From contig NZ_CP037922.1 of assembly GCF_004355185.1 (NCBI RefSeq), forward strand, positions 1,860,001-1,924,000: a stretch of 64,000 nt of DNA. The letters run 5' to 3'. Position numbers and translations under genes: made by a program. Of the stretch, positions 1 through 12,902 are shown one piece after another; positions within the stretch are counted from its first letter, which is position 1, and each line of letters opens with the position of its first letter. This DNA comes from Hymenobacter radiodurans (lineage in GTDB: Bacteria > Bacteroidota > Bacteroidia > Cytophagales > Hymenobacteraceae). Below the pieces are notes generated by a model. The model made no database searches and was not told the DNA's origin. It saw only the letters and a program-made list of their open reading frames with translations.

Positions 1-329
1 AAGCAATTCGAGCATTGTGGCCTAGCACTAGGACTAGGTAAGGTAATAATTGGGGTAAGAGTATACAGCTATCGCAAAGAATTGATCGACTGTCAAAACA
101 TTGATTTAAATGTATCGTGAAATAGCTGGCAACTATTTATGCATAATTTCCTGATCTCGAAGCAAGCCGCAGGCGCTGAGGAGATTTTAATGAATTTATA
201 TTATATGACAAAATTTCTTAACTAAATATATCAAGCAAAAAAAGCTATTGTTTAACTGTAAAGAGAGAATAGTTTTAGCAGTACATGATTTAAGCGACCT
301 ATTGATGATTGAAGCAATAATGGCGTTAG
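1..329. other. AT-rich stretch without a supported gene
   Basis: No open frame of useful length or recognisable motif is seen on either strand. The base composition matches the AT-rich accessory part that follows. It is simply the 3' side of the first minus-strand gene. Confidence 0.5.
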
Positions 330-803
330 CTACCTAGTGCGACGAATTGAATCAACAATAAATTCAAACCGATTTTGGTGCTTTATATAGCAATAACGGC
401 ATAGCCTTCTTGGATCATGTAAAATTAATTTATTATAAACATAATTTACCATTAATTTATCCGAATTGAATTCATATGGGGTAGTCTTTGATAGTATATC
501 AAAAGCTTCATGGGCATCTTTGCCAAACTCTTTGTGAATCTTATCAGTATAGTAATCAGCTGTTTGAAGACATAATAAATTTTCTCTAATTAGATAGACT
601 CTAGTCGAATCAGGTAATGTGATGCTTGAATAGAAATCCAAAACCTTTCTTTTTTCAACTTCTTTACTGAGCTCTTTACTAACAGCTAATACTGTTTGTT
701 CTAGCTTACCTACTTCACGTTTGGCATAGAACAAAGTAATAGCAGTAGCTAAAGCAATTAGTATTGATGAAATTAATGAAATTGAATAAATCTTAGAAGT
801 CAT
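330..803 (-). CDS. Small membrane-anchored coiled-coil protein of unknown function
   Basis: The 157-residue product begins with one hydrophobic segment (about residues 5-26, rich in I, L, A and S). A Lys/Glu heptad-like stretch follows (about 27-55) that probably forms a coiled coil. The rest is a soluble, presumably cytoplasmic domain with no motif I recognise. It ends in a basic tail with a CRYC motif. The next gene upstream on the same strand starts 25 bp away and has the same plan (one membrane helix plus coiled coil), so the two may be cotranscribed and act together. The function cannot be assigned. Codon use is AT-rich, like the neighbouring defence genes. Confidence 0.6.
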   Translation of the reverse strand: MTSKIYSISLISSILIALATAITLFYAKREVGKLEQTVLAVSKELSKEVEKRKVLDFYSSITLPDSTRVYLIRENLLCLQTADYYTDKIHKEFGKDAHEAFDILSKTTPYEFNSDKLMVNYVYNKLILHDPRRLCRYCYIKHQNRFEFIVDSIRRTR

Positions 804-827
804 TTCGATTAATATATAAATTCATAG

Positions 828-1121
828 TCAATCGCTTTCTTGAACACCCTTATTTGTGGATTTAAAGGCTAAGGCGATTTGTCCCTCCAATGTTGCATTC
901 TGAACTTGGATTTTCACAAGATCAGCGGTGATATTATCAGCTTTAGTGGATAATTTTTCAATGTCACCAATCAATTTTATATACCCACCGAATGCAATTC
1001 CTATGCTAAGTAAGAACATGCATATTCCCAAGAATTCTTTTATAGAGAATACCAGTCTTTGGTCGGAAGTATTTATGATTGTCGTTTGAACCTCGTGTTT
1101 ATCTCCCGGCTGAGTTACCAT
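828..1121 (-). CDS. Small single-pass membrane protein with coiled coil
   Basis: The 97-residue product has a short polar N-terminus, one strongly hydrophobic helix (about residues 30-52) and a C-terminal amphipathic region (about 53-85) with a heptad-like pattern. The layout resembles small phage or prophage membrane proteins that follow a membrane helix with a short coiled coil, but I see no diagnostic motif. It sits 24 bp upstream of the other small membrane gene on the same strand and is probably in one transcript with it. The function is unknown. Confidence 0.55.
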   Translation of the reverse strand: MVTQPGDKHEVQTTIINTSDQRLVFSIKEFLGICMFLLSIGIAFGGYIKLIGDIEKLSTKADNITADLVKIQVQNATLEGQIALAFKSTNKGVQESD

Positions 1122-2041
1122 ATTATATCTAAATTAAAAGAGTTAAGATAATTAACGGAGTTACCCTCATTTATGAAGCTTATTAAAGATAAAGAGATTT
1201 AATATGAATGTAAAGCTCAACTGTTACTGCCCGTATGTTTAAATTTAATCATAGCAGCGTCGATCATTTGGTAATGCCTCTTAATATTGTATAATATACA
1301 GTTGCCTATAGATAAGATAGCGATTATGGTAGAATATTATAAAACTAATTGTGTTATCTTCTGATGGACTTATGGCTGTGTTGTAATGGGTAGTTGTGTG
1401 GATGGAACGAAAGACCAACCATGGTATTCTTCAAACAAGTGGTCAATCCAAAAATGCATTTAACTGTACCGGGTAGGATCAGAGCGCGACCCATACCCCA
1501 ACTCGATAGCTTTTTCGATACCTCGCTCTTTGCTGGTGCTGATTGGAGGGGTAATTAATTTACCCAGAGTGGTTCTGAACTTTCTGATACTGCAGCCTAG
1601 CTGTTCGGTACTACAAAACCCGACTGTGTGGTAAAAGCTGTAATGCCAGAGACAGTTTCAAGTTACGTATCAATTCTGTAGACACCGATCTTTACTCAAA
1701 CCAGTATTTTAAAAGTCCTGTGGCTCATTGCTTCAGAACTTTTTTACTTGCTTTATGAACGCGAATGCAGAGTCTGCAATGAGTCTTTTAAGAGAAGAGC
1801 ATAGTTTGTTATCTCTAAGCTAATTAGCCTAGCTACCGAAGCAAATGGGAACGAAGCGAGTACATTTTTAAGAATAGGGGATAGGATAACACTCCACATA
1901 TTGACCACCCTAGTTTGTGCTGGTGACCTTGTCAGTCTGAGCAGTATAAGCTTATTCCTGAAAATACACTTATAGGAAAACGACAACCGGTTTACAGGAC
2001 GGTTTTGTTGAAATAACGCTTAAGGTAACACCTGATGTCCG
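1122..2041. other. 920-bp gap with no supportable gene
   Basis: The only frame of note (1753-1986, minus, 77 codons) has no recognisable domain and looks random. Short frames around 1440-1560 are interrupted by stops. A weak hairpin (about 1981-2010, CAAAACCG pairing with CGGTTGTCG on the minus strand, followed by T-rich sequence) could end the operon upstream. I looked here for a reverse transcriptase or msr/msd structure, because some Septu-type ATPase/HNH pairs are retron effectors, and found none. The stretch may be decayed mobile DNA. Confidence 0.4.
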
Positions 2042-2839
2042 TTACCAACTTGCCGCTCCCGGCACTAAGTTAAAGAGGCTCTGTAAAAAGGGAAGAGCAG
2101 AGATTTGCCGTTGCATTTCACGCCATACAGTAATATGTTGCTTTCGTAGTAACTCAGCACGCATGTGATTAAGTTGACTTAATGACCCATTATTTTGTTG
2201 AGCCATATAGTAACTTTTAAGACGTCCAGCAAAATCCTGAAATGCTTCCTTACGAGCTTGTTGTAATGGGTCCTTGTTTATACGTAATATTCGAATAGTG
2301 TAAAGTGCACGCTCCCTTTGTTGGGCATTTAGCGTTCGTCGAGGCTTAAATTCGAATGTATCTGTTAAGTCTAAAAAAAAGAACTCAGCAGGATTATCGT
2401 GTCGCGGATGTAATAATGCCTCTTGTCCGGCGGGGGGCGGAGTAGCTAAAGCATTCCTCAGGCGCTGAGCCTCATTTATTACACCAGATGTATCAACTAC
2501 CGCATAATTATTGTGTTTAGGGCCATTACAGGGACCACAAGCGAAAAGGTAATTATTTGGGTCAAACGTTTGGTCAGGAAACCAACTTTTAGGGCGAATG
2601 TGCTCAACCTCATCAGCTAGCGAGTCTTCACAATAGCCACACCGACGAGCTCCTGGACAGGTGCTTTCAAGAGCACTTCGAACACGTGAAAAGAGTGTAG
2701 CAGACTTGCTATTCCATTTTTGATCTGCTAGGATAACTTGGCTGTGATAATTAGCACCATTATTCACTAGTTGTTGAAGGGCTGCTAATTGTAGTCGGTC
2801 GGATGAACTGAGGGGCAAGGGAATAGCCAGCCGAATCAT
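2042..2839 (-). CDS. ptuB: HNH endonuclease, PtuB-like (Septu defence)
   Basis: The 265-residue product carries an HNH nuclease fold. A CGYC pair (Cys67, Cys70) is followed by EVEHIRPKS (His80 as the likely catalytic base), an N-rich turn (Asn95, Asn96) and a second zinc pair CGPC (Cys101, Cys104) followed by N-G-P-K. The two CxxC pairs would bind a structural zinc. In Septu systems PtuB is the HNH nuclease that binds the PtuA ATPase and cleaves nucleic acid during infection. Its ATG overlaps the stop of the ATPase gene by four bases (ATGA), so the two are translationally coupled. The ATPase lies upstream, in the usual ptuA-ptuB order. Assignment to Septu rests on this gene pair and the motifs. 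A general HNH nuclease of another ATPase-nuclease system is the main alternative. Confidence 0.8.
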   Translation of the reverse strand: MIRLAIPLPLSSSDRLQLAALQQLVNNGANYHSQVILADQKWNSKSATLFSRVRSALESTCPGARRCGYCEDSLADEVEHIRPKSWFPDQTFDPNNYLFACGPCNGPKHNNYAVVDTSGVINEAQRLRNALATPPPAGQEALLHPRHDNPAEFFFLDLTDTFEFKPRRTLNAQQRERALYTIRILRINKDPLQQARKEAFQDFAGRLKSYYMAQQNNGSLSQLNHMRAELLRKQHITVWREMQRQISALPFLQSLFNLVPGAASW

Positions 2840-5220
2840 AGGTTACCTAGCAACTTTTTGACAAATGCTTCGGAGTCACTAATAGGCAGAGTTGCGCGTA
2901 GTGTATTACGCTCCTGTTGCTCATCAGCAGTTAGTTCAGCACTTAGCGCTTGTTCATTCAAATCTGTTAAGCGAGATGTCTTTGCTTGACCTGCTTCGGA
3001 TTGAGTGTGTACCAATCCAAAAACCTCAGTACCATAAGCTTCAAGCACATTGCCGTATATCAAACGATTAAGTTCGGTGCCTGCTACCATTCTTCCTAAA
3101 CCTTCGGTTCCAGGACGTGGTAGGTGAAAGACAGAGCCGTGTTCAGCTGCTTGACAGACCAACGGACTATGAGTGGTGACGAAAAACTGAATATGGGGAA
3201 AATGTTTGGTCAGCCAGTAACCAATACGCTTTTGCCATATGGGGTGCAGATGTGCATCGATTTCATCGATTAAGACCACACCTGAAATACTGACTCTTAT
3301 CACTCCACTTTGATCAACTTCTTCAAATATACCCTCTCCATACTGGTTTTCAAGTTGACGTAGCAGTTCAAAAGCTAGGCTTAAGACTGACCTGAAACCA
3401 TCACTTAATTCATCAAGGTCAATTAAGTTATCACTACTATCACGAAAATAGATGCCTTCTGAGGATACTTCAGCTAAACGGGTACCGTGTGGTAAAAAAT
3501 CAGGTTGATTTATAAAGCTTTTTAGGCGCAGTAAAAAGTCTAAGCCATGTGACTCTAAACTGCGGAACTTTAATTGTCTTAACCAATTTAGAGCTTCAGT
3601 TAAAGCTACATTCTCCTTAAATAAGGATAAGTGGGCTGCGAGCCGTTTATGTTGTGGTGCATCGAATAACTTATGATATTCTGGGTCTCCACCTGTAAAG
3701 CGACGGAAGGGGCCAAAACCTGCTGAAAACCAGCCCTTGGTCTCGCTCCATAATGCATTGTAAGAAGAGTTACGGCCATTTTCAGTCGCTCGTGTTGTTA
3801 GTTTTCCAGTCTTTTTATCAATGGAGAACCCTATTTTCAACTGGTAATGCTCGCTATTTGCGTATTGCTCTAAGTCATCAGATTCAAAACTTGATACAGA
3901 ATTTAAATTTTCTGGAGTTATTAAAAATGAATCTTCAGAATAAGGTAAGATGCTCTGATTTTTCTCAGAGGATAGGCTCTCATTCTCTAACGGGACAAAT
4001 TCCTCATTAGGAAACCCTGAAGCAATCAGTGTTAAACGAATGCCTTGACCTAATGTAGAGTCAATGCCATGACCAAATATAACTTCGGCATCCTGACCAA
4101 CTTGATCCTGAAGGCGTTCCGTCATTTCTGTGAGTTCCTCCAGTTCTAATTCGGCCTGATTACCAGACATGACAGAAAGCAAAACCTTTTGGGCTCCAAG
4201 AAGACTAGTTCTACTTAGTAATGGGAGCATCAACGCTTCATCTACAGCACGGCGTGCTCTATCTTCACCTTCAGTATTACTCGACCCTATTACGGCCATA
4301 CCAGAATCCCTTAGCACAGCTTTTATGTCTTCAAAGTCTATGTGAACTTCACCAGTAGTAGTAAGGATTTGTGTGATACTCTGAACAGCTAGAAGTATAA
4401 TATCATCAGCTTGAGTGAATAGATCTCTGATGAACTTTCTTCCAGATATTTCACGCAAACTATCGTAGGGAATGACTACTGTTGCGTCACAGTTCTTTCT
4501 TAACTCATCAATTCCGCGTGTAGCCTGTTCAAGTCTCCTCTTCCCTTCAAAACGAAAGGGAACTGTAACAATACCTATTGTTAATATTCCTAACTCTTTA
4601 GCTATCTTAGCTATTACTGAGGCCGCTCCACTTCCGGTTCCACCGCCCATCCCGGCGGTTATAAATAGCATCTTAACCCCGTGTTTAAGTAATTCACGGA
4701 TTTGCTCTTGGCTTTCAATAGCTGCCATCCTACCCTTCTGCATGCTAGAGCCAGTACTTAGCCCTTCTGTCAAAGCAGCCCCTAGTTGCAACTTATTAGG
4801 CACCATGTTACTATTCAATGCCTCCCTATCTGTGTTACAAACGACTAACTCAACATCCTTGAGACCTTGGCTTAACATATAGTTCACTGCATTAGAACCT
4901 CCGTTGCCTACGCCCATAGCCATTAGGGCTGTGTTACTGCCTTTTGTGGATAACTCGTCCCCGATTTCTGGTTGTATTGTAAGTGAAATACTTCCCTCAC
5001 TAGTACCCTGACGAAGCCAGGTAGTGTAATCGACCCATAAGGCGGATGAGCGCTCTAACCCTAGTAGCCCAGCAGCTAGGGCTCGTAGTAGTGAGGACTT
5101 TCCCGACCCATTATCACCTAATATAACGTGCCATCCTGCTGGGTCCTGATTTTTGGGTAGCTGCCAGCAAAATGACTCAATGGCTCGAATATTCTCAAGT
5201 TTTACTCCAAGTAATTTCAT
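2836..5220 (-). CDS. ptuA: PtuA-like AAA/ABC ATPase with an internal FtsZ GTPase domain
   Basis: The ATG at 5220 gives 794 residues (a TTG one codon earlier is possible). Residues 1-95 form the N-terminal half of an OLD/SMC-like ATPase with Walker A GDNGSGKS (35-42). Residues about 98-403 are an FtsZ domain: GVGNGGSN (103-110), VVCNTD, the tubulin signature GMGGGTGSGAA (190-200), PFRFEGKRR, and a T7-loop region HIDFED (293-298). The two catalytic aspartates are kept, while the usual Asn is His. It ends in a Cytophagales-type region with EVIFGHGID and IASGF. After a polar linker (404-455) the ATPase resumes: GWFSAGFGPFRR, signature-like LSDGF (605-609), Walker B VVLIDEIDAHLHP (648-660) and H-loop THS. 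The reading frame is continuous. PtuA normally assembles with PtuB; the FtsZ domain could bind GTP, polymerise, or be a bait for phage FtsZ inhibitors (inference). The FtsZ C-terminal partner-binding peptide is absent. Confidence 0.88.
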   Translation of the reverse strand: MKLLGVKLENIRAIESFCWQLPKNQDPAGWHVILGDNGSGKSSLLRALAAGLLGLERSSALWVDYTTWLRQGTSEGSISLTIQPEIGDELSTKGSNTALMAMGVGNGGSNAVNYMLSQGLKDVELVVCNTDREALNSNMVPNKLQLGAALTEGLSTGSSMQKGRMAAIESQEQIRELLKHGVKMLFITAGMGGGTGSGAASVIAKIAKELGILTIGIVTVPFRFEGKRRLEQATRGIDELRKNCDATVVIPYDSLREISGRKFIRDLFTQADDIILLAVQSITQILTTTGEVHIDFEDIKAVLRDSGMAVIGSSNTEGEDRARRAVDEALMLPLLSRTSLLGAQKVLLSVMSGNQAELELEELTEMTERLQDQVGQDAEVIFGHGIDSTLGQGIRLTLIASGFPNEEFVPLENESLSSEKNQSILPYSEDSFLITPENLNSVSSFESDDLEQYANSEHYQLKIGFSIDKKTGKLTTRATENGRNSSYNALWSETKGWFSAGFGPFRRFTGGDPEYHKLFDAPQHKRLAAHLSLFKENVALTEALNWLRQLKFRSLESHGLDFLLRLKSFINQPDFLPHGTRLAEVSSEGIYFRDSSDNLIDLDELSDGFRSVLSLAFELLRQLENQYGEGIFEEVDQSGVIRVSISGVVLIDEIDAHLHPIWQKRIGYWLTKHFPHIQFFVTTHSPLVCQAAEHGSVFHLPRPGTEGLGRMVAGTELNRLIYGNVLEAYGTEVFGLVHTQSEAGQAKTSRLTDLNEQALSAELTADEQQERNTLRATLPISDSEAFVKKLLGNL
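4012..4929 (-). other. FtsZ-domain insertion inside the PtuA-like ATPase
   Basis: This is the part of the ATPase gene that encodes the FtsZ homology (residues about 98-403). It replaces the variable region that ordinarily connects the strand after Walker A to the GWF-GPFRR segment. Homology starts close to the T1 loop of FtsZ and stops after its C-terminal GTPase-activating domain, so a folded unit has been moved. By eye the base composition is the same AT-rich type as the flanks, which argues against a recent chimeric join with the host ftsZ. The sequence is related to, but clearly diverged from, cell-division FtsZ of Cytophagales (for example an MSGNQAELELEELTE segment). Confidence 0.85.
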
Positions 5221-5301
5221 CAATGTGGCTTCAGGAATGTTAACTTGTGAAAATGCTCAACGCCTAAATGGGGATAATTTGTAGATATATTAAGCATCTA
5301 A

Positions 5302-5309
5302 CAAAGGTA
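5302..5309 (-). promoter_or_regulatory. Candidate -7 box of the Septu-like operon
   Basis: On the minus strand this reads TACCTTTG, a perfect match to the Bacteroidota TAnnTTTG element. It lies about 80 bp before the ATG of the ATPase gene. I see no clear TTTG -33 box at the ideal distance, so the site is only a candidate. Confidence 0.45.
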
Positions 5310-5465
5310 GTATCATGAATATAGTGAGGCTTGCCTTCATTTAACTAACGGTGCATAATTTGAACACTGTTTCTAGAGACAAGTTGAAGTGAGCGGTGCT
5401 TGAAGCCTGATTCACTTTAATCTACCTAATGCTATCTGAGTTTCTAATATTTTAATTTACTCATT

Positions 5466-5493
5466 AAAAGAAAAGCCCCAGCAATGCCGGGGC
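5466..5493 (-). terminator. Intrinsic terminator after the zinc-ribbon gene
   Basis: On the minus strand the stem GCCCC-GGCATTGCT-GGGGC is followed by TTTTCTTTT. It lies about 50 bp after the stop codon of the small cysteine-rich gene. Confidence 0.75.
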
Positions 5494-5543
5494 CCCTTAT
5501 CGCACTTTATTGCTTATTCTTTAATGTTTAGTTGTACATATTA

Positions 5544-5852
5544 CTAGTAGTCCTCGTTAGGGTCAAGGCTTTCATGAAAGTTATACCCAAACCGAGACTT
5601 CTCTTTACCCCCCTCAATTCTCACATCATCGTTGTTAAAAGCGCCTGTCGGATACTCGTAAACTGAGTATTCAATGCTGATTTCATTCTCGCACTCATCG
5701 CACTCAATGGTTTCCTTCCATAAATAGCCATTTTCTTCACCCATTGATCTCTCGCTTCCTGATACAGAATCAAAATCCACATCCTCGGGACTAAAATTGT
5801 GGTGTTTACCACACGTTGAACAAGAAAACGAGAATATTCCAGTCACTATCAT
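5544..5852 (-). CDS. Small acidic zinc-ribbon-like protein
   Basis: The 102-residue product has two CxxC pairs, CSTCG (about residues 11-15) and CDECE (about 50-54). Together they could bind one zinc ion as a ribbon. The rest is acidic and beta-rich, with an NPEDY-like tail. No catalytic motif is visible. Proteins of this plan are common in accessory regions, but their function is generally unknown. It has its own terminator and is separated from the Septu operon by about 320 bp, so a direct role in that system is not supported by spacing. Confidence 0.6.
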   Translation of the reverse strand: MIVTGIFSFSCSTCGKHHNFSPEDVDFDSVSGSERSMGEENGYLWKETIECDECENEISIEYSVYEYPTGAFNNDDVRIEGGKEKSRFGYNFHESLDPNEDY

Positions 5853-6033
5853 ATAGCTACGTTATAAAGAGATGGTTTGAAGGCCCAACATTAATCAATA
5901 CTTTCTAATAAATAATATGGACCATAGTTATGGACTGGAAGCCAATTTATTAGAATTGTATGGTAAGGGCCGCGCATAACACAGCCCTTTAGCACTAGAG
6001 CCAATGGGTGTTGCATGGTAAGCGGCAGCATTT

Positions 6034-7359
6034 TTAACCTATGCTTTTCAATAGGGCTCCATCCATGTTTATTCGCCAGAGTTCTTCCAAATTAGTAGTG
6101 TAAGCTGGCGTCCGCATCTCCTTTTTCCCTGCCCATGAGGTTCTGTTGCTACTCTTGTATCGTTGAGCAACTGCGAAGCCCACCGCCCCCGTGCCATAGC
6201 GGGTGTTAAGCTCGTCTAAGTCAGCCATGAGCCTCTTCCGTTGCGGGGTCTGGGTAGTAAGCTCAAACAAGCTAAGTTGCTGCTGACCGGCTGCTTCCAA
6301 TCCGGCAAAGACTACTCCGGCCTTCTTGTACGTTGTGTTTGACTGCCACAATCTCTTCAGGGCTGCACGGGCATAACGAATCAGTTCTGCTGTGTCACTA
6401 GTAGCGACGGGAAGTGTCAGCGTGGCTGAAGCTGTGTAGGGTGGGGGCTCCGTACCATACCGATTCTTGCTGATAAACACTGTCAATAGCTGCACAGCGG
6501 AGTCTTGTCGCCGTAGCTTTTCTGCTGCCCGCGTGGTGAAGGCCGCGACCGCGCCCTGCACGTCTTGGTACGCGGTCAGGGGCTGGCCAAATGTGCGGGT
6601 GCAGGCAATACTTTGGCGGGATAGCGTGCCGTCCTCACTTGGGGCCATAGCCAAACACGGGACACCTTGTAGCTCGCGTACTAAGCGCGCCCCAACTACA
6701 CCCCCTAGATGTTTACGTGCCCATGCATCCGAGACATTTGCCAGCCCAGCAGCTGTTGTAATACCGTGGGCTTGGAGCTTAGTGGCATACTGGTGACCAA
6801 CGCCCCACACGTCCTCTACAGCGACCTGTTCCAACGCCCACTGTCTTTTCTGCTCAGAGTCCAGATACAGCACTCCCTCTAAGACTGGAGTCTTCTTGGC
6901 TATACGATTGGCTAACTTGGCTAGTGTTTTTGTGGGCGCAATACCTACGCAGGTAGGGATGTGGGTCCATTGCTTGACCTCACGGCGAATACGACGACCA
7001 TAAGCTTCAAGCCCTCCCAGCCAGCGCTCCATACCCGTCAGGTTCAGAAAGGCTTCGTCAATGGAGTATATTTCTACCTCAGGCGCTTCGTTAGCCAAGT
7101 AACCCATCACGCGCCGCGACATATCCCCGTAGAGGGCATAGTTGCTGGATAGTACCCGAATGCCGTGCTGTGCCACTAAGGGCTTGATCTTGAAGTACGG
7201 TTCCCCCATGGGAATGCCAAGTGCTTTGGCCTCAGCTGAGCGTGATACCACACAGCCATCATTGTTGCTGAGTACCACGACGGGTACGCCCTCCAGTTGG
7301 GGCTGAAAGGCCCGCTCGCAACTCACGTAAAAGTTATTGCCATCAACTAACGCGAACAT
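6034..7359 (-). CDS. umuC: UmuC, catalytic subunit of DNA polymerase V (Y family)
   Basis: The 441-residue length is typical of UmuC. The N-terminus [16 protein letters not shown] supplies the first metal-binding Asp (residue 6) of the palm. The second acidic pair is in YSIDEAFL (about residues 97-104). [13 protein letters not shown] is the finger-domain signature, and a helix-hairpin-helix region ([13 protein letters not shown]) and little-finger domain follow. It performs error-prone translesion synthesis with cleaved UmuD as cofactor. Its start overlaps the umuD end by 17 bp, giving a classic umuDC operon. As umuDC sets are often carried on plasmids and islands, its presence here fits an accessory segment. 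Confidence 0.95.
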
Positions 7360-7813
7360 AGCGCGACAGCCTCCCGGGCCGGGTTTCAGTAAGTACGTGC
7401 GTCACGACGCCCCAGCAGTCAAACAAGTCCGGCTCCTCCCCAATCGGGATAGACGGATACATCGGATTGTCCGGCACCAGCCACCAAGAGCCCGGGCTAC
7501 GCTCTACCAACCGCTTGACCGTATGTTGCCCTTCCACGACGGCAATGATCACGTCATTCGATCGAGGCTTGAGGCGACAATCTACTGCGAGTAACGCCCC
7601 GTCCCGGATGCCCGACTCGCCCCCTGTCATACTGTGCCCTTCTACCATCACTAGGTACGTCGCGTGGGGATGCGAGAGGAGCATGGCGTTTAAATCCAGT
7701 TTGACGCCCAAATGATCTTCGGCTGGAGAGGGAAACCCCGCCGGAACATAAGACTGAAAGAAGGGAAGCAGCAAAGGCTTCCGTAAAATGTCGAGAACAA
7801 CGACGCGGCTCAT
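7343..7813 (-). CDS. umuD: UmuD, S24 self-cleaving cofactor of polymerase V
   Basis: The 156-residue product has the S24 peptidase plan. A cleavage site Ala25-Gly26 in [12 protein letters not shown] is followed by the nucleophile Ser61 in EGHSMTGGE and the general base Lys100 in HTVKRL. RecA-stimulated autocleavage would remove the first 25 residues and activate UmuC. The gene is first in the umuDC operon. The leader carries a perfect 17-bp palindrome between the probable promoter elements (7852-7868), which would fit SOS-type repression, although umuD is not itself shown to bind it here. Confidence 0.93.
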
Positions 7814-7838
7814 AGCAACAACACAGGTGGGTTTGTCG

Positions 7839-7868
7839 CAATGATACGTATTACTAACTTAGTTAGTA
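7839..7868 (-). promoter_or_regulatory. umuDC promoter with palindromic operator
   Basis: TACTAAC-TTA-GTTAGTA (7852-7868) is a perfect inverted repeat with 7-base arms, 38 bp upstream of the umuD start. Just downstream on the minus strand lies TATCATTG (7839-7846), one mismatch from the TAnnTTTG -7 box. The palindrome therefore falls in the promoter spacer, where a repressor such as LexA or a LexA-like protein would block transcription. The motif is not the E. coli or Bacillus SOS box. Confidence 0.55.
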
Positions 7869-7890
7869 TAAAATATGCCAATAATTTTAG

Positions 7891-8163
7891 TTAAATCCCT
7901 TCTTGATCTAAGCTTAATTCTTTTAAATTGATGGAAACGGCGTAATCCTCTAAGCAATTGATACTGGTGAACGTGCGGGTGCGGACGAGGGTGTTGGCGA
8001 ATTGATCGTAGTAGAGCTCCACGAAAAAGCCTCCGGAGAAGTGGTATAGGTTTATGGCATCCTCTTCTTCGTAGCGGCAGGCTAGAAACACCCCCTCCTG
8101 CCAGATAGCTGACAGTTGATCGGCAAAGGGCAAGGCCCGAAAGGAATAGTGGGTGTACTTCAT
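7891..8163 (-). CDS. Conserved hypothetical protein, 90 residues
   Basis: The short soluble protein starts MKYTHYSFRALPF and has an alternating aromatic/acidic core (WQEGVFLACRYEE, FFVELYYD) that suggests a small beta-sheet fold. No signal peptide, membrane segment or catalytic motif is visible. It is probably its own transcription unit, ending some 20 bp from the umuD operator. I do not recognise the family. Confidence 0.6.
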   Translation of the reverse strand: MKYTHYSFRALPFADQLSAIWQEGVFLACRYEEEDAINLYHFSGGFFVELYYDQFANTLVRTRTFTSINCLEDYAVSINLKELSLDQEGI

Positions 8164-8265
8164 GCGGTTGAGCTGCGCAGGTTGGTCGCAAGTTTGAGTT
8201 AGAGATATATGCCTGTATCACTACACCCTTACTCCGGCTCCATGATCCGATAACTACCCCAAGAT

Positions 8266-8439
8266 ATGAAAGTACTTCTCTTAGGCTTCCTGCTAGCCTT
8301 CCTACTGGCGGGGCTGCCCCTATCTCTACTTTATACTCCCTTCTTCGCCTCCAAGGCTTCCTTACTGGTGATTGTAGGCGTACTACTGCTCACGGTCTAC
8401 CTGATTAGCAGTATCGTTGAGGGAGAGAAGAACCCCTAA
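8266..8439 (+). CDS. 57-residue hydrophobic peptide, two membrane helices
   Basis: ATG at 8266 to TAA at 8437-8439. The product begins MKVLLLGFLLAFLLAGLP, has a short YTPFFASK turn and a second hydrophobic stretch (about residues 31-49), and ends EGEKNP. It is a typical small two-helix inner-membrane peptide. The gene stops 14 bp before the start of the exported nuclease gene on the same strand, so the two are likely cotranscribed. It might be a toxin-like peptide or a membrane helper for the nuclease, but nothing in the sequence decides this. Confidence 0.5.
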   Translation: MKVLLLGFLLAFLLAGLPLSLLYTPFFASKASLLVIVGVLLLTVYLISSIVEGEKNP

Positions 8440-8453
8440 GCTATACTAAGTAT

Positions 8454-9314
8454 ATGTTTTCCCTACGCCATTTCCTTTCTAGCTTCCTACTACTGGCGTT
8501 GCTGACCACTGCCTGTTCGGAGGAGGAAGCAACGCCCAAATCACCAGTAACCCCAGCCTTGGAGGGGCATCTAACGATGGGCAATCCCAGTGGGGCGGTA
8601 GCAGATGTAGCTTCTCCTACGAACTACCTGCTCAGCAAACCCCAGTATGTACTCTCATATCACCGCGATAAGGGCATTCCGAACTGGGTGAGCTGGCACC
8701 TGGCTTCTTCCTGGTTAGGTAGCGCTGCCCGGCAAGATGACTTTAGGGCTGATAACACATTGCCTACGGGCTGGTACCAAGTGACGGCCGCCAGCTACAC
8801 CAGCTCAGGCTTTGACCGGGGCCACAACTGCCCCTCAGCCGACCGCACGGCCACCGAGGCCGACAATTCCGCTACGTTCCTAATGATCAACATGCTGCCC
8901 CAAGCGCCGCGCAATAATCAGCAGACTTGGGCTAGCTTGGAGGAATATTGCCGTACGCTCGTGGGGCAAGGCAATGAACTATATATTGTCATGGGGCAGT
9001 ATGGCACAGGCGGCATCGGTTCCAGCGGCGCCAAGATTACACTAGATAATGGACGGGTGACTGTGCCCCAACGAATCTGGAAAGTCATTGTGGTGCTACC
9101 TGAGGGGGCCAATGATGCCAGCCGCGTTAGTGCCAACACGCGGATTATTGCCGTGGATACGCCAAATGAGAACAATCTGAATACGGCATGGGGTAGTTAC
9201 CGAACGACGGTAGATAGCATTGAAGGGGCGACTGGCTATGACTTGCTGTCGGCAGTTCCAGCTTCAGTCCAAAGTGTTATTGAAGGCCGTGCGGATGTGG
9301 GGCCAACGCAATAG
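8454..9314 (+). CDS. DNA/RNA non-specific endonuclease lipoprotein (NucA type)
   Basis: The 286-residue product has a lipoprotein signal (hydrophobic stretch, then LTTAC with Cys21 as the lipidated residue). A beta-beta-alpha-metal nuclease domain follows, marked by the DRGH motif at 121-124, with His124 as the general base. The magnesium-binding region is NMLPQAPRNNQQTW (about 146-159), which contains the conserved Asn. The enzyme would degrade DNA and RNA outside the inner membrane, for nutrient scavenging or as a barrier against incoming DNA. It follows the small membrane peptide closely. The family is also used as secreted toxins, but no immunity gene is recognisable beside it. Confidence 0.9.
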   Translation: MFSLRHFLSSFLLLALLTTACSEEEATPKSPVTPALEGHLTMGNPSGAVADVASPTNYLLSKPQYVLSYHRDKGIPNWVSWHLASSWLGSAARQDDFRADNTLPTGWYQVTAASYTSSGFDRGHNCPSADRTATEADNSATFLMINMLPQAPRNNQQTWASLEEYCRTLVGQGNELYIVMGQYGTGGIGSSGAKITLDNGRVTVPQRIWKVIVVLPEGANDASRVSANTRIIAVDTPNENNLNTAWGSYRTTVDSIEGATGYDLLSAVPASVQSVIEGRADVGPTQ

Positions 9315-9435
9315 CTGTATTTCTCTTTTGTTAGCCATAGGTCCGTCAGGAACAGGCAGCTCAGCAGCCAACTTAGAATTTTCTCGCCTCAGTTAGGCTT
9401 TCAATTTGGATCGTAGCAACTTATTGAAAAAAATG

Positions 9436-10356
9436 TTATCCCTCCTCTGCTATTTTTATTGGCCTGACACAAGCATCTAAAAAAGCTATTCCATACTCAG
9501 TAAAACTCAGGTACCCTTTTCTTAGAATAAATTCCAGTTTCCAATTATCATTATCTTCATTATTGAATTCCTTTGCTGTTTCCTTTATCTGGTCAATTCT
9601 ATCCATATAAATTTTTTCAAGCTCTTCATACACAAGCTCATCCTCCTTATTATATTGATTTTTAGTAAGTTTCAAGAGCCCCAGTCTCGTCATATTTTCT
9701 ATATAAATATCGATATTATTTTTAAAAGTTAGATTGATTGAATGTTCTAGTCCAGATAAATTTTTATCAACCTCTATTTCTAATTCTAAAATATCCTGAA
9801 GTTCATATTTAATTTGCGCCTTTATTTGTTCTTTTGTTTTTGGTATATTGGAATTTGTTATTTCTGGCGGTGGTATCAATTTCTTGTATTTGCTAACGCT
9901 TATTTCAATGATGGGGATATTAGAGCCATCTTTTAAATGATATAATATCGATGCTTCATCCGCGCTCAGGTTCTCTAAAGTTTGAATAAACGCAGGATGT
10001 ACCATTCCAAGAGTAGAATATGTAGATCCTTTTGCTAGTAAATTAACGAAGGCATCTGATAATTTGTTTTGCTCTAGCGTTAGCAACTTATTAACTATTG
10101 GGAGGCCAATAGACGCCGGTATCTCACATATATCAGCCTGCTTTGTGTCAGCAAGTTTTTCCTCAGCGTTAAGGAAGTGCTGCCTCAACCGCTCTCTAGT
10201 ATCCTCATTTGATAACTTGGCAGATAAAAGACTAGCTGATTCGTATTTAAACACATCCGCGAGAGCTACACCGATCTTTGTAAAACCTCTGACTAAGGCA
10301 CTGATTTTTTTAGGTTCGTGACCCTCATTGTGAAACGAAAGGAGGTCTTGGCTCAT
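9436..10356 (-). CDS. Abi-alpha / DUF4393-like abortive infection protein
   Basis: The 306-residue, AT-rich gene resembles the Abi-alpha (DUF4393) family: an N-terminal helical part, the segment IPASIGLPIVNKLL (about 81-94), and the family-like core FVNLLAKGSTYSTLGMVHPAF followed by IQTLENLSADEASILYHL. The C-terminal half has a charged helical stretch and ends in a small domain (YLSFTEYGIAFLDACV) like a winged helix. Members are linked to phage abortive infection, with the mechanism unknown. The upstream membrane-protein gene on the same strand stops 36 bp before this start, so the two probably work as a pair. Confidence 0.7.
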   Translation of the reverse strand: MSQDLLSFHNEGHEPKKISALVRGFTKIGVALADVFKYESASLLSAKLSNEDTRERLRQHFLNAEEKLADTKQADICEIPASIGLPIVNKLLTLEQNKLSDAFVNLLAKGSTYSTLGMVHPAFIQTLENLSADEASILYHLKDGSNIPIIEISVSKYKKLIPPPEITNSNIPKTKEQIKAQIKYELQDILELEIEVDKNLSGLEHSINLTFKNNIDIYIENMTRLGLLKLTKNQYNKEDELVYEELEKIYMDRIDQIKETAKEFNNEDNDNWKLEFILRKGYLSFTEYGIAFLDACVRPIKIAEEG

Positions 10357-10392
10357 AAAATATTTAAATTAAACATGAGAAATATTTAATAG

Positions 10393-10971
10393 CTACTTCT
10401 TTTTCCCCCAAGTCGCTATAACCATAAATACAAGTACCGCCACACCAAAATTTAATAAATAATTATATATAGGCTGTTTAAAGGTTGGGATCAAGAATAA
10501 AAGAGAGTTTAAAATCACTACTATAAAAAATAAACCAATAAAAAAAGCTTGGCTTTCTGATTTATCTTTTGCTGTAAAAATATCAATAATTGCTAATAAA
10601 AAAAATAATACCGATGTAGATAAAAATCTTAATAAAATGACATCTCTATTATTGATGAATCGATTCATAGCTGCACTGTTGTATAAATTTCTTACTTCTG
10701 TCACCCAAGGTTTTCTTGTTCTAATTTGATTCGCAATATCATCTAGATCTTTTTTTAAAATAACTGTATCTTGCATTCCCTTAGGATACAGTTCGTTAAG
10801 TGATTTAATTTGTTCTATACGTTTATTAGTTCTATAGTTGAATGTAAAATTAAACGTGTCGTTTGTGAAGTAGATAGTTGTTATAATAAATAAAAAAAAC
10901 AATGTCTTTCGTGATAAGGAAAGCGTGCTATCAGTAACTAAATTGAGAAAATGTTTTATCAATTCTTCCAT
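10393..10971 (-). CDS. Multi-pass membrane protein, partner of the Abi-alpha-like gene
   Basis: The start at 10971 (MEELIKHFLN) fits better than the upstream ATG at 11019 because the extra segment is unlike a real N-terminus; this gives about 192 residues. The sequence shows one N-terminal membrane helix (FFLFIITTIYF), a soluble loop of about 75 residues rich in charged residues, then three closely spaced helices (FLLAIIDIF, FFIGLFFIVVIL, FGVAVLVFMVI). It is the first gene of a two-gene operon with the Abi-alpha-like protein. A membrane effector plus cytoplasmic sensor is a recurrent arrangement in anti-phage systems, so that role is plausible but not shown. Confidence 0.6.
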   Translation of the reverse strand: MEELIKHFLNLVTDSTLSLSRKTLFFLFIITTIYFTNDTFNFTFNYRTNKRIEQIKSLNELYPKGMQDTVILKKDLDDIANQIRTRKPWVTEVRNLYNSAAMNRFINNRDVILLRFLSTSVLFFLLAIIDIFTAKDKSESQAFFIGLFFIVVILNSLLFLIPTFKQPIYNYLLNFGVAVLVFMVIATWGKKK

Positions 10972-11198
10972 AAAAAATATTTTGCAATATAGCTTAAACT
11001 TGAAATACTTTGGGTTCAAGAAAACTTAGCAATTCTATAACAAAATTTATAGATAAAGCCGCCTCATCTTCATTACTATGTTTTCCATTGTGAATTACTA
11101 CATTCCTTACCGGCTTTAGGCAGTAACAAGCGGAGAAGCATGACATTAAAGCATGCATAAGCCCTGACTTGAATAAGTTGGGGCTTCTGTTCTCCAGC

Positions 11199-11543
11199 TT
11201 ATAGAGTGGGAGTATTGGCTCGGCCTAGAAGGGAGCGCTGATTGCGGTAGAGTATCTTGCTCTCGCAGAAGGCAATGCAGGAGGCGCGGGAGTAGCGAAT
11301 GGCGCGGCCCAGGCCCGTAGTCTTAAGCAGGCTGTCCTTGCGTTCCCGTTCGCTGCGTAGCGTGGTCAGGCTTTTAATGCCGGTCAGCTTTAAGGCAGTC
11401 TTGGAGGGTACGTACTCGTCGGTGCAGGCTTCGAGTTGTTCAATCCGTTTGAGTAGGGGAGAGGTAGATTTGTCTATTTGCTCTTGAATGGCAGTGGAGA
11501 GCCACTGACCGAACGAGGTAAATCCTTCTTTTAGCTCAGTCAT
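11199..11543 (-). CDS. Excisionase-like winged helix-turn-helix protein
   Basis: The start at 11543 (MTELKEGFTSF) gives 114 residues; the longer frame from 11648 reads through likely promoter sequence. An N-terminal coiled coil (about residues 10-40) is followed by a MerR/excisionase-type fold: YVPSKTALKLTGIKSLTTLRSER as the HTH, then GRAIRYSRASCIAFCESK as the wing and closing helix. Such proteins act as recombination directionality factors or small regulators on integrative elements. No integrase is in view, so it may be a remnant or a partner of an element that extends beyond the window. AAAGATCTTT, a 10-bp palindrome, lies just upstream (about 11612-11621). Confidence 0.6.
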   Translation of the reverse strand: MTELKEGFTSFGQWLSTAIQEQIDKSTSPLLKRIEQLEACTDEYVPSKTALKLTGIKSLTTLRSERERKDSLLKTTGLGRAIRYSRASCIAFCESKILYRNQRSLLGRANTPTL

Positions 11544-11843
11544 AAGGGAAGTGAGAGTGCTATAGCGAAATGGTATCAAGGTGGCACTATTGCCAGCCGA
11601 TACAAAGGTGAAAGATCTTTGTGTAATACGCAAAACAAAGATAATCAATTAGTTACGCACTTAATATGTGCATAAATGGTAAGTGTTACGTGCGTCAAAA
11701 GGTTTGTTTTTATCCGTTACAATCTGATTTTTACTACCTCCCGACTCTTGCATGAAATCGAAACAGGTCAATTTTTACCACAATTGGCAATAGGTATATT
11801 ATAATCTATATAATTATATGAAAATTTGAAGTATATCAATCTT

Positions 11844-12102
11844 ATGAAAACTCTATTAGGCACCTTGGCTTTGGTAATGGCTCTAGCCGCTGCCGCCCCA
11901 GTGTGGGTCCCCCTCACTGTCACTATTGCAAAAGCTATTACAGTCGAAGCCGCTGTCTACGTGTGCGTAAGTAAGTCGTTGGTAACTTACCATAGTTCTG
12001 ATCATTGCAGTGGACTCAACCGCTGCACCCACGAGGTAAATGTCATGTCAATTGGCAGACGCTCAACAGATGGGCAAAAGAGCGTGCCTGAACTGCTATT
12101 AA
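11844..12102 (+). CDS. Secreted Cys-rich small protein, frameshifted
   Basis: The first frame gives a signal peptide (MKTLLGTLALVMALAAAAPV) and the family motif VYVCVSKSLVTYHSSDHCSGLNRCTH. Around 12050-12051 one extra A shifts the frame. Reading on one base later gives LADAQQMGKRACLNCY and a TAA at 12100-12102. That tail is exactly the closing CxxC motif seen in this common Bacteroidota family of small secreted proteins. The unshifted frame instead ends in an unrelated tail at 12110. The repaired stop would be four bases before the next gene. I infer either a sequencing error or a fresh mutation. The function of the family is unknown; its four cysteines could form disulfides or bind metal. 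Confidence 0.65.
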
Positions 12103-12106
12103 GCGT

Positions 12107-12520
12107 ATGAAAAGTCTTATTAATCTCCTCGCAGTATCTACCACATTATGGGTATTGAATTCATCTTGCAACTCGCCTACTCAAAAGCCAGCAGATGAGG
12201 CACAGAATACAAAGCCTAATTCGCAAGAGATTATGAGAGTTCAAGAATCAATTTTGAACACGTATGGGGAGCTAGATGCTGTAGCAGCTAAGTATAATAT
12301 AGGGCGGGATACCATACAGGCTATAATAGCAGAGCATGTTGGACAAGGTGATTCCTCTAGAGTAATACTTGGGCTACTAAATTTTAGCGGTAAACAGCGT
12401 AGGCCAGCCAACGCTGTTGCCAAGGAACTAGCTATGCGCTATCATCTGCCATATTCAACTGTTGGCGGTATTATCTATGACACTCACGCCTTGCTCATCA
12501 AAGGGGCAGCCGCAGAGTAA
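12107..12520 (+). CDS. Small lipoprotein of unknown function
   Basis: The 137-residue product has a lipobox (LNSSC, Cys21) after a short hydrophobic signal. A Thr/Asn/Gln-rich linker and a mainly helical soluble domain (about 40-135) follow, with ESILNTYGELDAVAAKYNIGRDTIQAII at its start. No enzymatic motif is visible. The gene begins right after the repaired end of the Cys-rich secreted protein, so they form a two-gene export-directed operon. It is the last protein gene before the tRNA boundary. Confidence 0.6.
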   Translation: MKSLINLLAVSTTLWVLNSSCNSPTQKPADEAQNTKPNSQEIMRVQESILNTYGELDAVAAKYNIGRDTIQAIIAEHVGQGDSSRVILGLLNFSGKQRRPANAVAKELAMRYHLPYSTVGGIIYDTHALLIKGAAAE

Positions 12521-12770
12521 GTGGTTTTTAATAACTCACACCATAATGGATTACACACTTTTTTTCTGTTTACGCGTGAACAGGCACCGTGATACAGAGT
12601 GAACGTGAACAATGAAAGTGGAATTCTATTGCTCGATAAATAAGTTAACGGATACACATACACATACTCGTTAGCTAAAAATCTTTAAAGGCAGTGAGAT
12701 CGAAAGTAGATAAGGGGAATGAATTACAAACTGTCCCCCTGAGTGTACCCTAAACTTGGTCTATAAATGC
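12521..12770. other. Spacer before the tRNA-Glu gene
   Basis: No open frame or recognisable motif is visible. This is where an attachment-site copy of the tRNA 3' end would be expected if an element had inserted here. The tRNA sequence itself is intact, and I see no second copy of its 3' end in the window. Confidence 0.4.
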
Positions 12771-12807
12771 AAAAAACCCGCTCTGCGTTATGCATAGCGG
12801 GTTTTTT
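12771..12807 (-). terminator. Terminator of tRNA-Glu
   Basis: AAAAAACCCGCT and AGCGGGTTTTTT form a 12-base inverted repeat around a 13-base loop, 24 bp beyond the tRNA 3' end. It would work in both directions. Confidence 0.8.
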
Positions 12808-12830
12808 ACTGCCTAAAACGAGTGGTTAAG

Positions 12831-12902
12831 TAGTCCGTAGGGGAATCGAACCCCTGTTGGTAGAATGAAAATCTACTGTCCTAACCCCTAGACGAACGGA
12901 CC
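12831..12902 (-). tRNA. tRNA-Glu (anticodon UUC)
   Basis: On the minus strand the 72-base cloverleaf starts GGTCCGTTCG and ends CCTACGGACTA. The anticodon stem is GTAGA/TCTAC around the loop TTTTCAT, giving anticodon TTC (Glu). The T-loop has the GGTTCGATTCC motif. CCA is not encoded. The first acceptor pair would be G-U. The 3' end points at the accessory segment (positions below 12.8 kb), as expected when an island has used this tRNA as its integration site. A terminator follows. Confidence 0.95.

Follow-up and report, generated by a model that had tools for sequence, protein, structure and literature searches.

An FtsZ domain within the ATPase of a Septu locus from Hymenobacter radiodurans: a candidate integrated decoy related to host ftsZ

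Introduction

Plant immune receptors of the nucleotide-binding leucine-rich repeat (NLR) class include integrated decoys, in which a domain of a host target is carried inside an immune ATPase. Here, we describe a bacterial locus that may follow the same logic. It lies in a 64,000-nucleotide stretch of the genome of Hymenobacter radiodurans (RefSeq assembly GCF_004355185.1, contig NZ_CP037922.1, positions 1,860,001 to 1,924,000), hereafter called the window, whose own positions are used throughout. The locus is a ptuA-ptuB pair of the Septu type, and its ATPase gene, ptuA, contains in the same frame a domain of the cell division protein FtsZ. On balance, we think it somewhat more likely than not that this Septu system carries an FtsZ domain copied from host ftsZ and working as an integrated decoy.

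In Escherichia coli, PtuA and PtuB form a 6:2 oligomer (PMC12948488). The E. coli Septu system cuts tRNA-Tyr in its variable loop and retron-Eco7 degrades tRNA-Tyr (PMC13096335, PMC11555353). In a review, phage DNA is given as what Septu degrades (PMC12948488). Phages encode proteins that block FtsZ, for instance Gp0.4 and Kil (PMC9372555, PMC11323111). For Gp0.4, the predicted binding site on FtsZ is the synergy-loop face, to which SulA and MciZ also bind; hydrogen-deuterium exchange mass spectrometry supports this prediction (PMC13423816). Furthermore, a defense system named CapRel-Ebc is triggered only by FtsZ and Gp0.4 together, and E. coli FtsZ(Q47K), treated as monomeric, still supports this sensing with Gp0.4 (PMC13423816).

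Results

A single ptuA frame harbors an FtsZ domain

The ptuA gene lies in one open reading frame of the reverse strand that extends from a TTG codon at 5223 to a stop at 2836 (795 codons; Table 1). Its start is more likely the following codon, an ATG at 5220, which would give a protein of 794 amino acids (aa). Several profiles agree on the composition of this protein. Pfam places Tubulin at residues 101-260 (9e-40) and FtsZ_C at residues 308-404 (2e-18) within an AAA_21/SMC_N ATPase, the TIGR00065 ftsZ model gives 312.6 bits, which exceeds its cut-off of 295.2, and the PADLOC PtuA1 profile (PDLC00269) matches in two stretches (1.1e-141), the better one being residues 467-784. When compared by BLAST with an insert-free PtuA (P0017), only residues 2-95 and 479-784 align. 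Block-wise identity is host-FtsZ-like at about residues 98-407 and PtuA-like in the flanks. An initial annotation, made by a model from the letters of the DNA and a list of its reading frames, had proposed such a continuous ATPase-FtsZ-ATPase frame with the ATPase interrupted after about residue 95, and both points hold. It had also described some 300 inserted residues that start and end at domain borders. The conserved core, about residues 98-407, agrees with this, but a linker of low confidence then follows: the FtsZ-like part stops at about residue 407 and the short linker leading back into PtuA bears little likeness to the tail of host FtsZ.

In an AlphaFold model of the PtuA-FtsZ monomer (predicted local distance difference test, pLDDT, 84.6), the FtsZ fold of the insert is modeled at high confidence and the low-confidence linker covers residues 414-453 in the numbering of the model. 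The lists returned by structure searches were filled by FtsZ chains and scarcely tested the PtuA part, whose kinship is drawn from the profile matches and the sequence. The host's own FtsZ is encoded elsewhere in the same genome and shares 63% identity with the insert over the core.

The adjoining gene, ptuB, matches the PADLOC PtuB1 profile (PDLC00340, 1e-89) and Pfam HNH. The ATGA overlap between the two genes is also found in all six other locus records examined, corresponding to four genomes. The downstream HNH gene with its 4-bp overlap and the classification as a Septu-like two-gene system, both put forward in the initial annotation, are supported by the PtuA1 and PtuB1 matches and by the conserved overlap.

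Public records present these proteins differently. The predicted-protein database entry of the ptuA product (P0001; 693 aa) begins within the FtsZ part, and the fusion protein of Pontibacter fetidus (P0003) is labeled 'cell division protein FtsZ' in its public source.

Table 1. Features of the FtsZ-bearing Septu locus and its surroundings (window positions)
Feature	Position	Strand	Basis
ptuA with FtsZ insert	2836..5220	-	Open reading frame, PADLOC PtuA1 1.1e-141, Pfam AAA_21, AlphaFold model
PtuA N-terminal part, residues 2-94, with GDNGSGKS (taken here to be Walker A)	4942..5220	-	Alignment with insert-free PtuA; letters conserved
FtsZ insert, residues 98-407 (GTPase and C-terminal subdomain)	4003..4932	-	
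Tubulin signature GGGTGSG (T4 loop), residues 193-199	4627..4647	-	Sequence
T7 synergy loop HIDFED, residues 294-299 (His for Asn; both Asp retained)	4327..4344	-	Alignment with E. coli FtsZ
Variable linker with the passage back to PtuA, residues 408-489	3757..4002	-	Low pLDDT at 414-453; most divergent segment
PtuA C-terminal part, residues 490-795, with motifs taken here to be LSDGF signature, Walker B and H-loop	2836..3756	-	PADLOC PtuA1; invariant alignment columns
ptuB, HNH nuclease, 4-bp ATGA overlap with ptuA	2042..2839	-	PADLOC PtuB1 1e-89, Pfam HNH
UmuC-like (IMS) and UmuD-like (Peptidase_S24) pair	6034..7813	-	Same putative island
Abi_alpha / PDC-S47 candidate defense gene	9436..10356	-	Same putative island, 4.2 kb from FtsZ-Septu
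Right copy of the 19-bp direct repeat, at the 3' end of tRNA-Glu	12829..12847	.	tRNA-Glu 12830-12902

FtsZ-bearing PtuA proteins recur in Hymenobacter and Pontibacter

Among the 120 relatives listed in a search with the PtuA part (1017 matches), eight carry PF00091, including the window's own protein (P0001) and a fragment from Hymenobacter arizonensis (P0108). Within the family, the architecture is present in 5 of 204 genomes: this one, three of Pontibacter and that of H. arizonensis, where it is broken. In a sample of 390 genomes of the order, matches at 1e-30 lie in frames that pass the length criterion only in two members of the family. Altogether, ten members with this architecture were obtained from Hymenobacter, Pontibacter and metagenomes, nine of them complete and one broken. 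In the latter, the H. arizonensis copy (L005/L018), the ATPase and HNH genes are both naturally interrupted. In the four unbroken genomic loci, ptuB is present and overlaps ptuA. Three pattern matches were obtained on viral contigs and none is a relative.

The ratio of nonsynonymous to synonymous substitution rates (dN/dS) between the P. fetidus and Pontibacter Tf4 copies is 0.15 for the insert, 0.09 and 0.07 for the PtuA flanks, 0.26 for the linker and 0.03 for host ftsZ, the other pairs being too distant at silent sites for most segments. The insert is thus constrained, yet looser than genuine FtsZ.

That the ATPase gene and the FtsZ segment might prove not to be contiguous was among the refutations named in the initial annotation. 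Since other members are found in independent genomes and metagenomes, chance or assembly error is implausible. A functionless accidental fusion would fit the one copy in ten, that of H. arizonensis, that is broken in both genes. Set against this are the ten members, the dN/dS of the one pair and the conservation of both the insertion site and the overlap, so that accident or artifact is hardly credible as an explanation.

Two further matches deserve mention. A scan of 395 genomes of the phylum for PF12327 (FtsZ_C) gave, among the matches listed, one long frame (genome G544): the sole FtsZ_C match of that genome (C1:2201952-2202239) lies within an open frame of 773 aa. The genome that contains the window also has a weak tubulin-like match of 21.8 bits, below the cut-off (L003:736-1743, reverse strand), with an FGGTGAAG motif and no Pfam family at 1e-4.

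Inserts and PtuA frames have different histories

A tree was built from 60 FtsZ cores, namely 46 host or free FtsZs, four outgroups and the ten inserts; the free FtsZs comprised 40 of 119 newly found ones (those of named species and a small number from metagenomes) plus six host genes. The inserts of P. fetidus and Tf4 cluster with the FtsZs of those two hosts (bootstrap/SH-aLRT, the latter a Shimodaira-Hasegawa-like approximate likelihood ratio test, 100/94), and the H. arizonensis group of inserts clusters with H. arizonensis FtsZ (98/87). The third Pontibacter insert (G161) occupies a different place, still inside Pontibacter FtsZ. The approximately unbiased (AU) test rejects a single clade of all ten inserts (p 9.3e-7). 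It likewise rejects uniting the H. arizonensis group with the inserts of P. fetidus and Tf4 (p 6.7e-7) and a clade of the three Pontibacter inserts (p 0.0014).

In contrast, the PtuA frames of the same ten proteins form one clade (SH-aLRT 100) in a tree of 76 rows made by a quick method, from which 8 of 14 genome loci were excluded as having no usable PtuA frame under the motif filter. The three Pontibacter PtuA frames group together at 96. Since the PtuA frame is monophyletic and the inserts are polyphyletic, the FtsZ cassette has probably been exchanged, and we consider at least three replacements by host ftsZ probable. Exchange is a simpler account than repeated insertion at one site in the same PtuA lineage. 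A single ancestral insert that diverged together with its PtuA is ruled out by the AU test set against the monophyletic PtuA frame.

We also considered a separate capture for the window insert and did not retain it, its grouping with the H. arizonensis group not being rejected (AU p 0.0645). The corresponding p value is 0.0827 for a grouping with the H. arizonensis group and P0002, and 0.0331 for a grouping with two Pontibacter inserts.

Convergence onto host FtsZ would be another way to obtain host-matched inserts. It is disfavored for the P. fetidus/Tf4 pair by silent sites: the distances of these inserts to the ftsZ genes of both hosts are 0.68-1.29, near the value of 0.83 between the two host genes and below the nearly saturated 3.69 that separates the host genera, which argues for descent from host ftsZ. 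The distance of the G161 insert to host ftsZ is 2.0, also near saturation and of little information.

The likeness of the insert to Cytophagales FtsZ, remarked in the initial annotation, is thus made more precise by the phylogeny, in which the inserts nest inside Hymenobacteraceae FtsZ. This is the origin expected of an integrated decoy, namely a host protein that pathogens target, FtsZ being known as a phage target from other hosts only.

Changed and kept residues of the inserts

Residues are given in E. coli FtsZ numbering and were counted in the nine complete inserts, the partial H. arizonensis insert being excluded. D45, Q47, N165, N207, D209 and D212 are invariant in the 46 free Hymenobacteraceae FtsZs and the four outgroups. 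In the inserts, Q47 is changed in eight of nine, D45 in five and N165 in four, with at least one of these three changed in every insert. For instance, the window insert keeps D45 and departs from the invariants by Q47E and N165Y. In the T7 loop, D212 is kept in all nine inserts, and D209 and N207 in eight each. The His that replaces the T7 Asn, to which the initial annotation drew attention, is real in this copy and not typical of the group, since it recurs in just one of the nine other members, the broken copy of H. arizonensis.

Counted by lineage (six), D45, Q47 and R142 are changed in 11/18 cells versus 1/18 for N207, D209 and D212 (p 0.0009). The hosts have K at residue 142, and in three cases the change there is from K to R; leaving this residue out gives 8/12 versus 1/18 (p 0.0006). 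Among deeply invariant positions, changes are least frequent in the T7/H8 region (7/84) and most frequent in helix H7 (27/72), with 101/462 in the N-terminal domain and 29/138 in the C-terminal domain. Moreover, the Gp0.4 footprint, as taken from PMC13423816, together with the synergy loop has 28/174 cells changed versus 325/1188 elsewhere (p 0.0012). In a comparison of four lineages that assumes equal site rates, six positions are changed in at least three lineages versus 0.84 expected (p 1e-4); we regard these changes common to insert lineages as a lead only.

In Staphylococcus aureus FtsZ, D46A and T7-loop mutants do not assemble (PMC8936486). Assembly of the inserts is probably impaired, judging from the residues changed, and not surely lost.

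These counts bear on the possibility that the insert is an oligomerization or guanosine triphosphate (GTP)-sensing module, which would form FtsZ-like filaments or read GTP and thereby assemble or license the PtuA complex. Such a module would account for the FtsZ fold modeled at high confidence, for the tubulin signature kept in most copies, for the catalytic T7 aspartates kept nearly always and for T108, E138 and F182, present in all nine inserts. However, D45, Q47 or N165 is changed in every complete insert, the GTP site is degraded in P0007, and a module of this kind would have no evident need to be re-captured from each host. We therefore hold this explanation to be improbable. GTP sensing, which the initial annotation had offered as an alternative, looks weaker than the bait: residues contacting the nucleotide or the next subunit in assembly are changed, though several on the phosphate side are kept.

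The insertion slot in PtuA

A profile of 77 insert-free relatives (chosen by length, 430-450 aa) was aligned to 231 proteins. An internal break is found in 20 of them, ten near profile positions 86-109 and ten near position 203, a count that is no natural frequency since the 231 are listed matches, partly restricted to long proteins. The breaks near positions 86-109 contain FtsZ (six), TIR (two), a leucine-rich repeat (LRR) array (one) and a coil-like stretch (one); the LRR and tetratricopeptide repeat (TPR) assignments are precomputed Pfam labels and the coil was judged by eye. The proteins with TIR, LRR or coil-like contents (P0077, P0105, P0298 and P0086) belong to other bacteria. With the C-terminal tail set aside, variability among the insert-free relatives is highest at residues 71-130 (2.6-3.4 bits per block of 10 residues), and the stretch of residues 80-132 varies in length from 47 to 82 versus 52-54 in a control stretch. 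On alignment grounds, this variability would look like that expected of a recognition site.

Two further explanations were considered. In the first, the insert binds host FtsZ, capping protofilaments or gauging free FtsZ, so that Septu, as a guard, senses division arrest or itself blocks division once activated. The host matching of the inserts and the retention of the T7 loop are equally predicted by this explanation, and an FtsZ with one functional side is the expected look of a cap. However, the TIR and LRR contents of the same slot point to varied partners, a constitutive cap would be costly, and CapRel-Ebc, admittedly another system, ignores other FtsZ inhibitors and hence division arrest itself (PMC13423816). 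We regard binding to host FtsZ as unlikely, while giving it more weight than the other alternatives. The co-assembly with the host Z ring suggested in the initial annotation is affected accordingly: ordinary co-assembly is unlikely in view of the same residue changes, and the part of the idea that survives is a possible one-sided binding.

In the second, the insert acts passively, soaking up phage FtsZ inhibitors like a sponge and so keeping them off host FtsZ, without any signal to PtuB. Predicted-inactive enzyme domains, including MinD/ParA-like and FtsK ones, have been proposed as decoys elsewhere (PMC7159879), in keeping with such a role. However, the insert sits in the hairpin of the ATPase core and not in a separate protein or a tail, ptuB is retained with its overlap in the four unbroken loci, and low copy number would make a sponge weak. 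This makes a mere sponge very improbable.

Other long PtuA proteins were noticed. The ten with a break at the second site, near position 203 (within P0301-P0314), and the PtuAs of loci L022, L023 and L024 have 410-505 extra residues with TPR labels. Several TPR-bearing PtuAs are from Hymenobacter, and those of L022, L023 and L024 adjoin a gene that looks HNH-like by eye. Still other long relatives (P0084, P0089, P0111 and some of P0240-P0300) bear precomputed Pfam labels of nucleoside phosphorylase, metallophosphatase (PF00149), PLD-like (PF13091) or NTPase domains; the phosphorylase label of P0089 is N-terminal.

Genomic neighborhood

The FtsZ-Septu pair is likely carried, as judged from repeats and gene content, by a putative island of about 19.9 kb integrated at a tRNA-Glu gene. 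The left copy of the 19-bp repeat lies outside the window (contig C2, 1852901-1852919), beside a tyrosine integrase, and the putative island would span C2 1852901-1860000 and window positions 1-12847 (L068). Its cargo comprises the tyrosine integrase, an AAA_25 protein, a Zn-ribbon/DUF6371 protein, FtsZ-Septu, the UmuDC-like pair and Abi_alpha. Copies in other genomes also have defense genes in their vicinity. In the Pontibacter G161 genome, genes of a cyclic oligonucleotide-based antiphage signaling system (CBASS; cyclase, SAVED-HNH and patatin) are found about 1.3 kb downstream (L069:12898-17652), and the H. arizonensis copy lies near pPIWI-RE genes.

Discussion

How a decoy of this kind might act can be outlined as follows. 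A phage protein attacking FtsZ would dock on the FtsZ domain built into PtuA, which in the model is attached to the ATPase hairpin through two flexible stretches. Docking may change the assembly of the PtuA ATPase and thereby release or activate PtuB. The activities of E. coli Septu and retron-Eco7 suggest, by analogy, tRNA-Tyr or else another nucleic acid as the target that PtuB would then cut to end the infection. The insert is expected to polymerize poorly or not at all, leaving the Z ring undisturbed, and to keep the synergy-loop face that SulA, MciZ and Gp0.4 bind. On arrival of the mobile Septu lineage in a new host, swapping the bait for the FtsZ of that host would be favored by selection. 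This fuller version, in which a plug-in slot holds an FtsZ re-copied in each new host, disarmed for assembly and serving as a self-updating decoy for phage division inhibitors, has in our estimate just short of an even chance.

The initial annotation had suggested that the domain is a bait for phage inhibitors of FtsZ. Several of our observations fit this suggestion: the inserts appear matched to their hosts, specific assembly residues are changed while the T7 loop is largely retained, and the slot elsewhere holds domains of recognition or signaling type. CapRel-Ebc provides a precedent (PMC13423816).

A number of points weigh against the decoy. Some concern the pattern of changes. The host matching and the retained T7 loop would be equally expected if the insert binds host FtsZ, and the inserts evolve faster than host FtsZ, as a strict mimic need not. 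P0007 alone accounts for 12 of the 28 changes in the footprint, and the cells counted are not independent. The nucleotide-side loops overall are not more changed than the rest (71/294 versus 325/1188) and differ weakly from the footprint (p 0.046); T108, E138 and F182 are unchanged throughout and N24 is kept in eight of nine inserts. The case for a changed GTP side thus comes down to a small set of individual residues, and the inserts may still bind GTP. Other points concern the trees. The groups submitted to the AU test were chosen after the tree was known, and the bootstrap of the FtsZ tree is not fully settled. The G161 insert has a longish branch (0.34), making the third capture less firm than the first two, and the window insert, itself on a long branch, has no support for being separate from the H. 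arizonensis group (AU p 0.0645). In addition, we know of no phage FtsZ inhibitor in these hosts. Finally, the S. aureus Q48A mutant, which corresponds to Q47, still assembles with a GTPase activity about 6-fold lower (PMC8936486); therefore, a change at Q47 does not by itself make loss of assembly certain.

If the integrated-decoy reading is true, bacteria would have evolved independently the logic of plant integrated decoys, with a bait re-taken from the host genome. The contents of the slot in other PtuAs (TIR, LRR, coil) would then form a catalogue of what Septu watches or signals with, and how Septu senses phage would become directly testable. Moreover, phages of these Bacteroidota are predicted to encode yet-undiscovered FtsZ inhibitors.

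Among the matches listed for openly licensed PubMed Central papers, neither an FtsZ-bearing Septu nor an FtsZ-PtuA fusion was found described, in line with the initial annotation, which knew of no Septu with this architecture. We file the FtsZ-bearing PtuAB as a Septu with a new architecture, for which phage protection is predicted. It resembles stand-alone Septu in its PtuA1 and PtuB1 profile matches, gene order, ATPase motifs and HNH nuclease, and differs from it by the 310-residue FtsZ domain in the hairpin slot of PtuA. Retron-Septu systems (Ec78, Ec83 and Eco7) also have PtuA and PtuB homologues, and the corresponding models NF041760 and NF041761 are matched here far below their cut-offs. 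The locus is not a retron-Septu, because the whole genome has no match to reverse transcriptase PF00078, a search that was positive in 3 of 14 control genomes; window positions 1-12000 likewise have no Rfam match at the gathering score.

CapRel-Ebc shares with the mechanism proposed for the present locus the principle that phage attack on a host target, FtsZ, triggers immunity; however, it relies on free host FtsZ and a fused toxin-antitoxin effector, whereas here FtsZ lies within a Septu ATPase (PMC13423816). VMAP-ternary and related conflict systems include cell-division domains, rarely FtsZ or tubulin, and their inactive enzyme domains have been proposed as decoys; they are nevertheless different systems, and the text contains neither 'Septu' nor 'PtuA', its relevant passages not raising repeated capture from hosts (PMC7159879). 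The insert is similar to cellular FtsZ in its fold and in its TIGR00065 score above the cut-off, and unlike it in being embedded in an ATPase, with changed assembly residues and apparently no recognizable C-terminal peptide. Compared with plant NLRs, the system described here is bacterial and based on Septu, and its bait has apparently been swapped for the gene of the resident host.

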